DNA of 64,000 bases, taken from NCBI GenBank assembly GCA_944322675.1, contig CALUPO010000009.1:1-64000 (forward strand), given 5' to 3'. Below are positions 32,995 through 36,847 of this stretch, one piece after another. Made by a program: the position numbers and the translations under genes. The notes beneath the pieces are model-generated. The model saw nothing but the letters and a program-made list of their open reading frames with translations. It was not told the origin of the DNA and made no database searches. The stretch's first letter is position 1. Every line of letters starts with the position of its first letter. Source of the DNA: Candidatus Gastranaerophilales bacterium. GTDB lineage: Bacteria; Cyanobacteriota; Vampirovibrionia; Gastranaerophilales; Gastranaerophilaceae.

Positions 32995-33120
32995 CCGCCG
33001 TAGGACAGACGACCGAATGAAATGAGGGCGGATACCACAGGCGGGAAAAAAGCCAGAGCCGACAGCACGAAGTGCGATAGGAGAAGTTAAACAGAGTAAC
33101 CCCGTCTGGAAGACATTAAA
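32995..33120 (+). repeat. 126-bp direct repeat, copy 1
   Basis: Aligns without gaps to 33574-33699, offset exactly 579 bp, with roughly a dozen substitutions. It begins CCGCCGTAGGACAGACGACC and ends at a CCGTCTGGAAGACATTAAA word. Internal complementary segments (CCGCC with GGCGG; GCAC-GAA-GTGC) suggest a folded transcript. Confidence 0.85.
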
Positions 33121-33256
33121 ATAAATTTAAACTTAACAATTTTATCACCCTCACCCCAAAAAAGAGAAAGTGAGAATAAAAAAGTTGGAGAATGAGGTCA
33201 ACAATGGCAACCCATACGCAGGTTTGAGTAATAGTCACAGACGAAACATTGTCAAA

Positions 33257-33349
33257 GCCTCCTTTTGTTTGAGTGCACGAAGTGCACGAGTTAAGGAGGC
33301 TCAAGTTGAGTCGTATGAATATACAAAAACTAAGTGGGTTGCGGTTTTG
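33257..33349 (-). repeat. hairpin element, inverted copy 1
   Basis: GCCTCCTT (33257-33264) pairs with AAGGAGGC (33293-33300), and an inner GTGCAC-GAA-GTGCAC (33273-33287) caps the stem. The flank GGGTTGCGGTTTTG (33336-33349) is the exact complement of 33780-33793. The element is related in reverse orientation to 33780-33870. Confidence 0.75.
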
Positions 33350-33530
33350 TGCAGCTTTTGCGTAAAAGCTGCCCCGTCCGGAGGACATTAAATTAATTTT
33401 AAATAATTCTTGAAAAAAAATAATTGTTCGTGCCTGCGTATGGGTTACATTTGCTGACTTTATTCTACAATTGTTTAATTTTTTGAAAAAATAAACAAAG
33501 TTGCCCCATCCAGAGGACATTAACTTTCGC

Positions 33531-33559
33531 GTGTGTGTCCCCCCCCCCACACACACACA
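33531..33559. repeat. simple-sequence tract (GT)4-C10-(AC)5
   Basis: GTGTGTGT (33531-33538), ten consecutive C (33539-33548), then ACACACACACA. The GT and AC arms can pair across the C-run. Homopolymeric C tracts are prone to slippage; in a genome this AT-rich the tract is exceptional. Its length in the read assembly may itself be unreliable. Confidence 0.85.
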
Positions 33560-33573
33560 TAAATTACTAATTT

Positions 33574-33699
33574 CCGCCGTAGGACAGACGACCGAATGAA
33601 ATGAGGGCGGATACCTCAGGCGGAAAAAAAGCCAAAACCGACAGCACAAAGTGCGATAGGAGAAGTTAAACAGAGTAACCCCGTCCGGAGGATGTTAAA
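33574..33699 (+). repeat. 126-bp direct repeat, copy 2
   Basis: Second copy of the 32995-33120 unit. Substitutions include CCTCAGGCGG for CCACAGGCGG and CACAAAGTGC for CACGAAGTGC; the latter weakens the hairpin by one pair. It ends with CCGTCCGGAGGATGTTAAA. Confidence 0.85.
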
Positions 33700-33755
33700 A
33701 TATTTTTAAATAATTTTTTGAAAAAAATTTTAAATATTTAAATAAAATTAAAGGA

Positions 33756-33779
33756 GGCACTTTGTGTGGACAAAGTGCC
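33756..33779 (+). repeat. perfect 9-bp hairpin
   Basis: GGCACTTTG and CAAAGTGCC enclose a 6-base loop TGTGGA. It directly precedes the inverted hairpin element and has no T-run, so it is a structural RNA or DNA element rather than a terminator. Confidence 0.8.
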
Positions 33780-33870
33780 CAAAACCGCAACCCGACTTGC
33801 CGCTCTCATTCTCACTAAACTCAACTCAAGCAGCCTTAACTCGTGCTTCGCACTCAAACAGACGGCTGCC
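33780..33870 (+). repeat. hairpin element, inverted copy 2
   Basis: Homologous in opposite orientation to 33257-33349. It contains CAAAACCGCAACCC, CTCAACTCAAGC and CCTTAACTCGTGC, and folds with GCAGCC (33830-33835) against GGCTGC (33864-33869), with GTGC-TTC-GCAC inside. The stem bases differ from copy 1 (GCAGCC/GGCTGC against GCCTCC/GGAGGC), yet pairing is kept. Confidence 0.75.
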
Positions 33871-34057
33871 TGTTGTTGTTTCGTTAAGCGAATTTCCGGA
33901 CGGGCGAAGTCCCGGGGAGCGAAAAGCCGGAGCCGGCAGCACGAAGTGCGACAGGCGAAGTGCTTTGAGCTTGAAGGAAATTCAAGAGAGTGATAATTGT
34001 TCGCGGCTGCGAATGGGTTGCAATATATTAGTTATTTTTATATTTGCTCATTTTTTA

Positions 34058-34110
34058 GTAAATTATATACATATATGAGAATTTATTCTCATATATGTAT
34101 ATAATTTTAC
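34058..34110. repeat. long AT-rich palindrome
   Basis: Arms at 34058-34082 and 34085-34110 are complementary over about 25 bp with a single-base bulge and only two central bases; core ACATATATGAGAAT. There is no T-run, so it is not an intrinsic terminator. It separates the GC-rich island from the HTH/small-peptide region and could be an operator, a replication or recombination site, or an element end. Confidence 0.85.
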
Positions 34111-34142
34111 GTAAATATTTATAATATGTCATAATAAATAAT

Positions 34143-34381
34143 ATGAGTATTAGAGATGATGTAAAATATTTATTATTTGAGAATAATGTCACAATGACCC
34201 AACTTGCTGAAGTATTGACTAAACGTACGGAAAAAACTATACAATAGGAAGCCTTTCTAAAAAATTAGTTCGCAATTTTTTACGTGCTGATGAATACAAA
34301 CTAATTGCTCAAATTTTAGGCTATGAAGTTAAACTTATTAAAAAATACCCTTCCACAATAAAGCCTAAAAATAAAGAGTAG
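34143..34381 (+). pseudogene. HTH-like small protein, frameshifted
   Basis: The ATG frame reads MSIRDDVKYLLFENNVTMTQ, then LAEVLTKRTEK, and stops at TAG 34245-34247 after 34 aa. One base out of register, the frame continues as YTIGSLSKKLVRNFLRADEY then KLIAQILGYEVKLIKK to TAG 34379-34381. Together these make a coherent ~80-aa HTH-like protein, joined if one A is added to the A6 run at 34231-34236 or if ribosomes slip back one base there. It is most simply a pseudogene or a sequencing indel. No good ribosome binding site precedes it. The 3' end is repeated 545 bp downstream. Confidence 0.65.
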
Positions 34382-34425
34382 AAATAGAAAAATTATTTAT
34401 AAAATCCAAAGCCACATTAACAAAC

Positions 34426-34454
34426 TTTATTTTTATACATATTTTCGGTATGAT
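34426..34454 (+). promoter_or_regulatory. sense promoter of small-peptide cassette 1
   Basis: TTTATT, 17 bases, TATGAT. The homologous positions in unit 2 (34971-34999) read TTTACT and TATAAT at the same spacing, supporting function. Predicted start near 34461, leaving a 5' leader of about 120 nt. Confidence 0.55.
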
Positions 34455-34492
34455 GAAATAAAATTGTACATTTAAAATTTAATAAAAGTTTT

Positions 34493-34744
34493 AAAAAGGT
34501 AGGGTTTAGTTTCTACAGAATACAAAACTCCTCTTCTTACGTCTTATTTGTTAAATAAAAAATGAAGAAAGGAGGTTGCGTATGAGTGATTTATTATTGT
34601 TAATTCTTCTAATTTATTTAGCTAGAAAAAATAATAAAGAGCTATTTATAATCTTAATGATTATTATAGCCCTTAAATATTAAATTACCTGTAGAAACTA
34701 AAAGTTAAATCGGGTACCAACCGAATTTAACGCCCTACCTTTTT
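34493..34744 (+). ncRNA. structured RNA enclosing peptide ORF 1 (candidate type I toxin mRNA)
   Basis: The ends pair perfectly over 12 bp (AAAAAGGTAGGG 34493-34504 with CCCTACCTTTTT 34733-34744). Just inside, TAGTTTCTACAG (34507-34518) pairs with CTGTAGAAACTA (34689-34700). A 3' hairpin GTTAAATCGG...CCGAATTTAAC lies at 34704-34731. CTCCTCTTCTT (from about 34529) is complementary to the Shine-Dalgarno region AAGAAAGGAGG. The final T5 may terminate transcription. Confidence 0.65.
34582..34683 (+). CDS. 33-aa hydrophobic peptide (candidate type I toxin)
   Basis: MSDLLLLILLIYLARKNNKE followed by a second hydrophobic segment ending LKY: two short hydrophobic helices (residues 4-13 and 21-31) around a charged hinge. 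A strong AAAGGAGG sits 8 bases before the ATG. The peptide is small, membrane-seeking and translated from an RNA that can mask its own ribosome binding site, as in type I toxin mRNAs such as hok, Ldr or AapA. I do not recognise it as any known toxin. Its paralogue in unit 2 keeps the pattern but differs at many residues. Confidence 0.65.
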   Translation: MSDLLLLILLIYLARKNNKELFIILMIIIALKY

Positions 34745-34772
34745 ATTATATCATTTTTTATATTTTTTTCAA
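34745..34772 (-). promoter_or_regulatory. convergent (antisense) promoter, cassette 1
   Basis: On the minus strand TTGAAA (34772-34767), a 16-base spacer and TATAAT (34750-34745). The predicted start is near 34738, inside the 3' pairing arm of the sense RNA, so the transcript would be antisense to the peptide mRNA. The element is conserved in unit 2. Confidence 0.6.
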
Positions 34773-34850
34773 TATACAAAAAAAATATGAATAAATGCAA
34801 AAAATTTAAACCATTCAAAGATGTAAGCAATTATATTTGTTATAATTAAC

Positions 34851-34926
34851 TGCTCAAATTTTAGGCTACGAAGTTAAACTTATTAAAAAATACCCTTCCA
34901 CAATAAAGCCTAAAAATAAAGAGTAG
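34851..34926 (+). pseudogene. 3' remnant of the HTH-like gene
   Basis: Repeats the final 25 codons of the HTH-like gene (AQILGYEVKLIKKYPSTIKP to TAG) with one silent change (GGCTAC for GGCTAT) and no start. It is a by-product of the tandem duplication and marks its left junction. Confidence 0.8.
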
Positions 34927-34970
34927 AAATAGAAAAATTATTTATAAAATCCAAAGCCACATTAACAAAC

Positions 34971-34999
34971 TTTACTTTTATACATATTTTCGCTATAAT
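34971..34999 (+). promoter_or_regulatory. sense promoter of small-peptide cassette 2
   Basis: TTTACT, 17 bases, TATAAT, closer to consensus than in unit 1. Predicted start near 35006. Confidence 0.6.
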
Positions 35000-35038
35000 G
35001 AAAGAAAATTGTACATTTAAAATTTAATAAAAGTTTAT

Positions 35039-35285
35039 AAAAAGGTAGGGTTTAGTTTCTATAGAATACAAAACTCCTCTTCTTACGTCTTATTTTGAAG
35101 AAATCGAGGAAAGGAGGTTACGTATGGTTGAAAATATTTTGTTTTTAATTTTGCTTATTAAATTGGCAAATAAAAATACAAAAGAGCTAATTCTGATTTT
35201 GGTAATCATATTAGCTCTAAATATTTAAATACCTGTAGAAACTAAAAGTTAAATCGGCTCGCAACCGTATTTAACACCCTACCTT
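35039..35285 (+). ncRNA. structured RNA enclosing peptide ORF 2 (candidate type I toxin mRNA)
   Basis: End pairing AAGGTAGGG (35042-35050) with CCCTACCTT (35277-35285), inner pairing TAGTTTCTATAG (35053-35064) with CTGTAGAAACTA (35233-35244), and a 3' hairpin GTTAAATCGG...CCGTATTTAAC (35248-35275) whose loop differs from unit 1. CTCCTCTTC in the leader can pair with GGAAAGGAG before the ORF. The terminal T-run of unit 1 is replaced by TTCCT, so termination may differ. Confidence 0.65.
35124..35228 (+). CDS. 34-aa hydrophobic peptide (candidate type I toxin, paralogue)
   Basis: MVENILFLILLIKLANKNTK followed by ELILILVIILALNI: the same two-helix plan as the 33-aa peptide, with a KNTKE hinge where the other has KNNKE. 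GGAAAGGAGG precedes the ATG by 8 bases. Divergence inside the ORF exceeds that of the flanking RNA, yet the frame, hydrophobic pattern and hinge are kept, which argues for selection on the peptide. Membrane activity is inferred from composition only. Confidence 0.65.
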   Translation: MVENILFLILLIKLANKNTKELILILVIILALNI

Positions 35286-35288
35286 CCT

Positions 35289-35316
35289 ATTATACCATTT
35301 TTTATATTTTTTTCAA
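35289..35316 (-). promoter_or_regulatory. convergent (antisense) promoter, cassette 2
   Basis: Minus-strand TTGAAA (35316-35311), 16-base spacer, TATAAT (35294-35289), identical to the unit 1 element. It would start near 35282 and run antisense into the peptide RNA. Confidence 0.6.
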
Positions 35317-35398
35317 TATACAAAAAATTATTAGAAAAATTAAGTAAAAGCTAAAACAATTGTACAATCAAACTATAATATTTCGGTTTATAAATTAA

Positions 35399-36847
35399 CT
35401 ACATTTCATGTGATGTTTCATTTTGATATAAAACAACACGATTGCGTCCCTGTTCTTTTGCCTGATATAATGCTTCATCAGCTTTTTTATATAAATCTTT
35501 AGGTGTTAAAATTGTATGTTCGTTAAACTCACTCACACCTATGCTTATTGTAACCTGAATTTCTTTTTGGTTGCTATATACCTGTTGAATATCTATCTTT
35601 TCACTTTCAACTTTTTTACGTAGACGCTCAGCTACAAATTTAGCTTCTTCAATTGTTGTATATGGAAGCAAAATACAAAATTCTTCTCCTCCATAACGTG
35701 ATGCCGTATCATATTCACGCAATTGAGATTCAATTATTGATGCAACTTTTTTTAGCACAATGTCTCCGGCAATGTGTCCATATGTATCATTAATTTTTTT
35801 AAAATAGTCAATATCTGTCATCATGCAACACAACTTCTTATTTTTACGTTTTGCAGTTGCAAATTCCTGATTTAAACGTATTTCAAACTGTCGACGGTTA
35901 TTTAAACCTGTTAAAGCATCCATTGTTGCATGTTTTAATATTTCAGAATACATATTTGCCCTGCCTATTGTTGTCGAGGATTGATTCGCTAGTTGAAGTA
36001 AATATGTTACCTCTCTCTCATTTAAAGGATAAACATTTGATGAAGCCACGATAGCCCCAAGTATTTTATTTTCATTTTTTAATGGAAAAATTGCTATTTT
36101 TTTATCCTTAGATATTATATACTCATCCTCAATTTTAACCGTATCAAGCATATTTATTATATTTTCATCCTTGCAAGATAAAGGCCATAAAAGATTATAT
36201 TTGTTATTGTCATCTTTTAAAAATACATATATCAAATGATTTGCAATAAATCTATCAATCATTTCACCTATTATGGGAATGATATAATTAAGCTCATACT
36301 GATTTTCAATAATTTTTGCTATATTCTTCATAGCATCATAAAATTTTACATTGATTTGCATTTGACTATTTAAAAGATTATTTAATACCGCAGATGAAAT
36401 TTGAGATAATACAACCTCAAATGTTTTTATTATATTATTTTCAAATTTTTTAATATCAATATTTTCAAGCTCTAAAAAAGCAAATGTTTTTCCATATTTT
36501 TTAAATGGGATGTAAACTTTATCATTTAGTTTTAAATTTTGAATTGTTGAAAATTCACAAACATTATCATTCATTATAATATATTTTTTTTTATTATCCG
36601 TTTCATTAATTTTTTCATTAAAATTGTTAAATAATTTTTGACAATTTTCATCAAGTATAATCCAATTTTTTTCAATATCTTTATAAATATTATTTCCTGA
36701 TATATCCATTACATATATTTTAAATTTAGTTGTAAATAAATATTTACCAAAAGTTATCCTTAGATTGTCAATAACTTTATTTATATCATAAGAGCTATTT
36801 AAATTATTTGTTATATCATATATAAAATTTAAATTAATATTTTCCAT
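35399..36847 (-). CDS. diguanylate cyclase with GAF-like sensor region
   Basis: 482 aa. The C-terminal GGDEF domain (about 315-475) starts DALTGLNNRRQFE and has an intact active-site loop RYGGEEF; ITISIGVSEFNE follows. The N-terminal 300 residues contain two GAF-like stretches (around 20-150 and 165-300, with PFKKYGKTFAFLELE and FPLKNENKILGAIVASS). There is no membrane helix, so it is probably a cytosolic sensor making c-di-GMP. No clear RxxD inhibitory site was noted. It is the last gene of a minus-strand run with a TPR protein and a methyltransferase. Confidence 0.9.
   Translation of the reverse strand: MENINLNFIYDITNNLNSSYDINKVIDNLRITFGKYLFTTKFKIYVMDISGNNIYKDIEKNWIILDENCQKLFNNFNEKINETDNKKKYIIMNDNVCEFSTIQNLKLNDKVYIPFKKYGKTFAFLELENIDIKKFENNIIKTFEVVLSQISSAVLNNLLNSQMQINVKFYDAMKNIAKIIENQYELNYIIPIIGEMIDRFIANHLIYVFLKDDNNKYNLLWPLSCKDENIINMLDTVKIEDEYIISKDKKIAIFPLKNENKILGAIVASSNVYPLNEREVTYLLQLANQSSTTIGRANMYSEILKHATMDALTGLNNRRQFEIRLNQEFATAKRKNKKLCCMMTDIDYFKKINDTYGHIAGDIVLKKVASIIESQLREYDTASRYGGEEFCILLPYTTIEEAKFVAERLRKKVESEKIDIQQVYSNQKEIQVTISIGVSEFNEHTILTPKDLYKKADEALYQAKEQGRNRVVLYQNETSHEM

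Follow-up and report, generated by a model that had tools for sequence, protein, structure and literature searches.

Two adjacent units in a stretch of 64,000 nucleotides (nt) from a "Candidatus Gastranaerophilales" bacterium (GenBank assembly GCA_944322675.1, contig CALUPO010000009.1, positions 1 to 64,000; here, the window) are probably type I-like toxin-antitoxin cassettes of a new variant that recurs across the family Gastranaerophilaceae, as judged from their sequences. Each unit carries a short open reading frame (ORF) for a hydrophobic peptide, and the gene of its putative antisense antitoxin is predicted to end in a terminator hairpin that lies inside this ORF. An initial annotation had assigned a type I architecture to the pair. 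That architecture is backed by homologues, covarying closed ends and ratios of nonsynonymous to synonymous substitution (dN/dS) below 1, whereas the accompanying comparison with hok/Sok and Ldr, in which the antisense RNA lies at the 5' side, does not hold.

Reading of positions 33600 to 36200, together with a repeat search, confirmed the two duplicates of about 545 bp that had been described. The first unit (34299 to 34783, plus strand) and the second (34844 to 35327, plus strand) are direct repeats with a spacing of 544 to 546 bp, and they are 91 to 95% identical outside the ORF core. The extent given at first (34493 to 35285) was too narrow, as the sense promoters lie upstream and the antisense promoters downstream of that span. 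The ORFs of 33 and 34 codons with strong Shine-Dalgarno (SD) sequences are as annotated: peptide 1 (33 amino acids [aa]; MSDLLLLILLIYLARKNNKELFIILMIIIALKY) is encoded at 34582 to 34683 and peptide 2 (34 aa; MVENILFLILLIKLANKNTKELILILVIILALNI) at 35124 to 35228, both on the plus strand. AAAGGAGG precedes each of them, with the SD sequence AAGGAGG at 34569 to 34575 and at 35111 to 35117. Putative sense promoters were found at 34426 to 34454 (TTTATT-17-TATGAT), a position kept in all five aligned copies, and, by promoter scan and in the aligned copies, at 34971 to 34999 (TTTACT-17-TATAAT). In the window copies, the conserved sense TATAAT precedes the mRNA closing arm by about 40 nt, compared with 7 to 13 nt in several relatives, and their sense start site is uncertain.

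The initial annotation gave no evidence for an antisense RNA; the sequence offers some, in the form of a minus-strand promoter and an internal minus-strand terminator in each unit. The two best promoter-like sites of the region both belong to the minus strand and occupy the same position in either unit (TTGAAA-16-TATAAT with an extended TG and 11 of 12 matches, at 34745 to 34772 and 35289 to 35316). Transcription from these sites is predicted to start near 34738 and 35282, where the peptide mRNA has its 3' end. Promoter, internal terminator and fold together predict antitoxin-like antisense RNAs of about 110 nt (34628 to 34738, minus strand) and about 112 nt (35170 to 35282, minus strand), each with two hairpins, that cover the 3' half of the ORF and the 3' untranslated region (UTR); across the family, the predicted length is 78 to 121 nt. 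The putative intrinsic terminators are located on the minus strand within ORF 1 (34628 to 34676; hairpin TAAGGGCTATAATAATCATTAAGATTATAAATAGCTCTTT, then ATTATTTT; free energy change, -13.4) and ORF 2 (35170 to 35221; hairpin TTTAGAGCTAATATGATTACCAAAATCAGAATTAGCTCTT, then TTGTATTT; -14.1). In neither case was any of 60 synonymous nulls as good, and hairpin and T-run can be read on the minus strand only. The hinge codons AAA AAT AAT AAA GAG read CTCTTTATTATTTTT on that strand, and the Lys/Asn/Lys/Glu hinge thus mirrors, on the coding strand, the U-tract of the antisense RNA. This qualifies the hinge of the initial annotation: the two modelled helices do break there, but the hinge looks to be at least partly an RNA feature and not purely a peptide feature. 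The predicted duplexes of the tandem copies are much stronger for cognate (-177 and -185 kcal/mol) than for non-cognate (-105 and -107 kcal/mol) pairs, which suggests that tandem duplicates can be regulated separately.

The ends of the predicted peptide mRNA pair in each unit over 10 bp (outer arms, AAAGGTAGGG/CCCTACCTTT) and 14 bp (inner arms, TTTAGTTTCTACAG/CTGTAGAAACTAAA), a longer pairing than the 9 to 12 bp noted before, and the single wobble change reported between the copies is present (CTACAG to CTATAG, opposite CTGTAG). According to the fold and to covariation, the 5' closing arm of mRNA 1 (34495 to 34518, plus strand) pairs with 34689 to 34702 and 34733 to 34742; that of mRNA 2 lies at 35041 to 35064 (plus strand). 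On the 3' side, a 3' UTR hairpin sits between the outer and the inner closing arms (34689 to 34742 with the hairpin at 34704 to 34731, and 35233 to 35286 with the hairpin at 35248 to 35275; plus strand, from the fold). Minimum free energy (MFE) z-scores of both RNAs, -8.0 and -8.4, were not reached by any of 200 dinucleotide shuffles. Within the window subfamily (six copies from two genomes), both partners have changed in seven of the arm pairs. These copies score 0.319 for covariation, compared with 0.187 after shuffling (0 of 500 as good) and 0.122 or less for slid registers, with the register set by hand in a way that favours the structure somewhat. A likeness to the closed-end mRNAs of hok and AapA, which had been drawn earlier, is thereby upheld, the 5'-3' pairing being predicted and covarying. 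The SD sequence is predicted to be masked by an upstream anti-SD, ACTCCTCTTC, located at 34527 to 34536 in copy 1, where the MFE structure pairs it with the SD and where it is invariant in the aligned copies, and at 35073 to 35082 in copy 2 (from the fold; both plus strand). The predicted probability that the SD is unpaired is 0.17, compared with 0.32 with shuffled leaders. Removal of the first 20 nt lifts it to 0.35 on average, and 5' trimming of the mRNA would therefore be the likelier activation step.

The cassettes are not confined to the window. A peptide search turned up one more copy in this genome and, in another genome of the genus, a tandem pair; a second, sequence-divergent cassette adjoins the C32 copy. 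Covariance models were built for the 5' module and the 3' module, and their strong matches were restricted to the genus, where each of the two genomes carries several copies, whether intact or decayed; many weak 3'-module matches elsewhere share the architecture but carry other peptides. Two of the decayed copies, loci L029 and L032 of genome G001, retain the 5' RNA module but have lost the SD or the ORF. The weak matches L010 to L013 look like ordinary coding sequence and were rejected as elements.

A strict pattern made of the 3' arm and the antisense promoter matched 24 of 142 genomes and 16 of 41 genera of the family, with no match for its reversed control and none in about 95 genomes from other families of the class. 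About 33 of its 38 sites were judged by eye to be true elements, while L063, L065, L078, L088 and L092 were judged non-elements. A looser promoter-plus-arm pattern gave 232 matches in 92 of about 145 family genomes, compared with 14 control matches (totals summed by hand). Not all of the 232 are elements: 38 of the 56 sites read have a hydrophobic SD-preceded ORF. No element was found outside the family with the looser pattern, as the two matches in G263, from the other family of the order, are without an ORF and were discarded. Nucleotide searches of phage and plasmid sequences gave no match, and a scan of IMG/VR with the family pattern, which served as a negative control, yielded 30 contigs, at most one of them with a hydrophobic SD-preceded ORF.

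Altogether, at least 75 unique peptides of 19 to 34 aa are found on one RNA chassis across Gastranaerophilaceae. Tandem arrays are frequent; in the array G027:C34 (L167), as many as four promoter sites follow one another at intervals of about 305 bp. Three or four cassette-like sites with differing peptides, about 305 to 320 bp apart, occur at L167 and at L153/L168 (G079:C20). Recurrence with end pairing kept and stems covarying, which the initial annotation had named as support, is thus seen in the family; with 75 peptides and dN/dS below 1, the locus is neither solitary nor free of purifying selection.

Since the antisense promoter and a filter for hydrophobic SD-preceded ORFs served to collect the elements, these two features are partly selected for (the former including the -35 box TTGAAA at 16 to 17 nt, found in 40 of 41 elements), whereas terminator, 5' arm and covariation were not selection criteria. 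The elements share ancestry, and the shuffle statistics are accordingly not independent and the probabilities optimistic. An antisense terminator embedded in the ORF was detected in 37 of the 39 elements of a first set with a scorer of our own simple design. It beat at least 57 of 60 synonymous-codon resamplings in 35 of the 39, and in 34 it was better than the best sense-strand terminator of the same stretch. A second set of new elements, which had not been used to form the terminator idea, passed all three measures in 36 of 36 cases with the scorer unchanged and 40 resamplings per element. The literature searched, which lacks most subscription papers, holds no case of an antitoxin terminator placed inside the toxin ORF family-wide. 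U-turn (YUNR) loops in the antisense hairpin occur in only 6 of 41 elements and are thus no family feature.

End closure is likewise predicted throughout the family, with a mean GGG/CCC pairing probability of 0.92. The base beside AGGG covaries with its partner in the first set (TAGGG/CCCTA in 13 elements, CAGGG/CCCTG in 11 and AAGGG/CCCTT in 8; the remaining arms are GAGGG/CCCTT in 1 and mismatched in 5). GAGGG/CCCTC was also found (3 elements) in the second set, where the arm fit is looser than in the first. Relatives with short peptides (e.g., L080, L059 and L043) often have TAGGG in the region of the stop codon, which gives the 3' CCCTA arm an additional partner. It is possible that this TAGGG lets the RNA switch from 5'-3' closure to a local terminator hairpin and back.

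The peptides fit the size class of type I toxins, as they are small (under 60 aa) and hydrophobic and have their own ribosome binding site. AlphaFold2 modelled peptide 1 as two helices (residues 2 to 16 and 19 to 32) broken at the hinge, with a mean pLDDT of 79 from only five sequences. All 10 pairs compared showed dN/dS below 1, an approximate measure since RNA constraint acts on synonymous sites, and hydrophobic class is kept at 29 to 32 of 32 to 34 positions. These sequence comparisons indicate that the peptides are under purifying selection, in line with the earlier description of ORFs that diverge but keep frame and hydrophobicity. Every listed peptide reaches a high maximum hydropathy, a value above 1.5 having been an entry filter. 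Neither peptide had been recognised in the initial annotation, which suspected a new family; in agreement with this, 10 peptides had no match above cut-off in Pfam and NCBIfam, 7 peptides had no confident match in PHROGs and PADLOC, and the window region had no match to Rfam covariance models at the gathering score or at an E value below 0.1. A scan of ten relatives with Rfam returned only a tRNA. Short relatives (e.g., MNISITEKALIIILIIIIALKLHI) are similar to the window peptides' C-terminal half (KELFIILMIIIALKY), a similarity whose value as proof is limited by hydrophobic composition. We lean slightly toward the view that one RNA chassis, with its pair of inward promoters, its closed ends and its ORF-embedded antisense terminator, carries dozens of unrelated-looking membrane peptides, that the antitoxin terminator partly dictates the peptide, and that the shared bases may be regarded as a two-way code.

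The promoter, the ORF-embedded terminator, the end pairing, the SD masking and the purifying selection find support in the analyses above, and from them we infer how a cassette may work. Both strands would be transcribed. The sense promoter would give rise to an mRNA of about 250 nt, and because its ends pair and its SD is masked by the upstream anti-SD, a fresh transcript would be poorly translatable. The stronger, inward-facing promoter at the 3' end would produce the antisense RNA of about 110 nt, which is expected to fold into a 5' hairpin, the complement of the mRNA 3' UTR hairpin, and the terminator hairpin within the ORF. The duplex of antisense RNA and mRNA would extend over the 3' UTR and over the part of the ORF that encodes the C-terminal half of the peptide, and it would probably be degraded by RNase III or kept from translation. 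With less antisense RNA, or on a 5'-trimmed mRNA, the SD would open, and the hydrophobic two-helix peptide of 33 to 34 aa could then enter the membrane and harm the producing cell.

Several points weigh against this interpretation. The SD masking is local, with the same predicted accessibility after 3' truncation (0.15 versus 0.15), so that translation is not necessarily controlled by the end closure itself. At the thresholds used, no antisense terminator was detected in L059 and in one copy of G001 (MVNKILFFILL...). Finally, a non-toxic small membrane protein under antisense control would look the same, and toxicity is the part of the type I-like interpretation that is most likely to fail. 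Such a protein, with a housekeeping or stress role and the same RNA control, would be fitted equally well by all of the sequence evidence, including the purifying selection on the peptides. We nevertheless consider it unlikely, since tandem arrays and fast turnover of peptides on a conserved RNA chassis appear more typical of toxin-antitoxin cassettes, as do the decayed copies (L029 and L032) and the patchy presence across genera.

If the units were short, non-autonomous mobile elements resembling miniature inverted-repeat transposable elements, the paired ends would be terminal inverted repeats and the ORF incidental. The ends are indeed near-perfect inverted repeats, copies are both dispersed and in tandem, and flanking 7-mers are shared in slight excess (27 versus 18.3 +/- 3.5); local composition and tandem copies could account for this weak excess. 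Such an origin is very improbable given that frame, SD, hydrophobicity and the directional, ORF-embedded terminator are kept across 75 different peptides, and that the end sequences vary among copies and covary rather than match one transposase. We give equally little credence to a structured regulatory RNA whose short ORF would be no more than a translated leader or sponge and whose peptide would be irrelevant: conservation is strongest in the RNA structure and the peptide sequence varies widely, but dN/dS, the retained hydrophobic class and the high maximum hydropathy argue for a peptide that matters. Chance ORFs and promoters might be expected in an AT-rich genome, where a simple promoter scan finds many sites (16 versus 11 expected). 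This explanation is refuted by recurrence and covariation; reversed-pattern controls gave 0 and 14 matches, as opposed to 38 and 232, and a hydrophobic ORF accompanies the family pattern in at most 1 of 30 viral contigs.

Directly upstream of the cassettes lies the remnant of a small, frame-broken helix-turn-helix-like gene (34143 to 34379 and 34844 to 34926), without a match in a Pfam search; the tandem duplication also copied its 3' end. At 33100 to 33990 of the window and at 2116 to 2780 of L002, a dispersed repeat that is more GC-rich and includes the ORF fragments SNSHRRNIVKASFCLSA... adjoins cassettes on two separate contigs of one genome. A perfect 23-bp inverted repeat with a 2-nt gap is located at 34060 to 34107.

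Type I systems have been described only from Proteobacteria, Firmicutes and Tenericutes, plus one candidate from Microcystis in 2025 (PMC12390103). The cassettes would constitute a large type I-like family in a gut lineage from which the literature searched reports no such system, and they were found via RNA architecture, not peptide homology. The ORF-embedded antisense terminator is a simple signature for which other phyla can be scanned, and it offers a reason for the lysines kept just before the second hydrophobic stretch.

Convergent antitoxins that overlap the 3' end are established (PMC4147584, PMC6562991, PMC6563280). In BsrG/SR4, BsrE/SR5 and YonT/SR6 of Bacillus subtilis, the antisense RNA overlaps the 3' end of the toxin mRNA, by about 120 nt for SR4, and SR6 is 100 nt long (PMC4147584, PMC6562991, PMC5848175). 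The cassettes resemble the BsrG/SR4 type in their convergent genes, their 3' overlap (about 110 nt in the window, as predicted), an SD within a stem and an antitoxin terminator hairpin that takes part in pairing (PMC4147584, PMC6562991, PMC5848175). They differ in that no sequence similarity was found, the predicted antisense terminator falls entirely within the ORF, the two ends of the mRNA pair and the peptides are only 19 to 34 aa. TxpA/RatA of B. subtilis likewise shows convergent 3'-end overlap and expected mRNA degradation, but RatA stays outside the coding region (PMC4147584), whereas the cassette antisense RNA would cover about half of the ORF. The toxins of the Clostridioides difficile CD2517.1-RCd8 group, which has convergent overlapping genes and no homology to other toxins (PMC6563280), are 50 to 53 aa, and no shared chassis has been shown for them. 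MsoT1/MsoA1, a type I candidate from Microcystis and thus from Cyanobacteria, which GTDB places in one phylum with the cassette lineage, was found by scanning one genome (PMC12390103) and is compared here by description. Several predicted Microcystis antitoxins overlap both the coding sequence and the 3' UTR (PMC12390103), so coverage of the coding sequence is not by itself new.

AapA/IsoA of Helicobacter shares with the cassettes multiple chromosomal copies, a 5'-3' long-distance interaction, anti-SD masking and a tiny peptide (PMC6733600). In the cassettes, however, the antisense RNA is predicted to act against the 3' half, and SD masking is predicted to be independent of the 3' end, as 3' truncation does not open the SD (accessibility, 0.15 versus 0.15). 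With hok/Sok and Ldr/Rdl they have in common a small hydrophobic peptide, duplicated loci and, for hok, an end-closed structured mRNA. In those systems, the antisense RNA pairs near the 5' region and a leader ORF (mok in hok/Sok) is coupled to the toxin gene (PMC6562991), whereas the cassette antisense promoter is at the 3' end and no overlapping leader ORF of at least 25 aa was found in the 5' UTR. By sequence and RNA-family searches, the cassettes belong to none of these families; they appear to combine the convergent, 3'-overlapping antisense layout with an mRNA end closure like that of AapA and hok.
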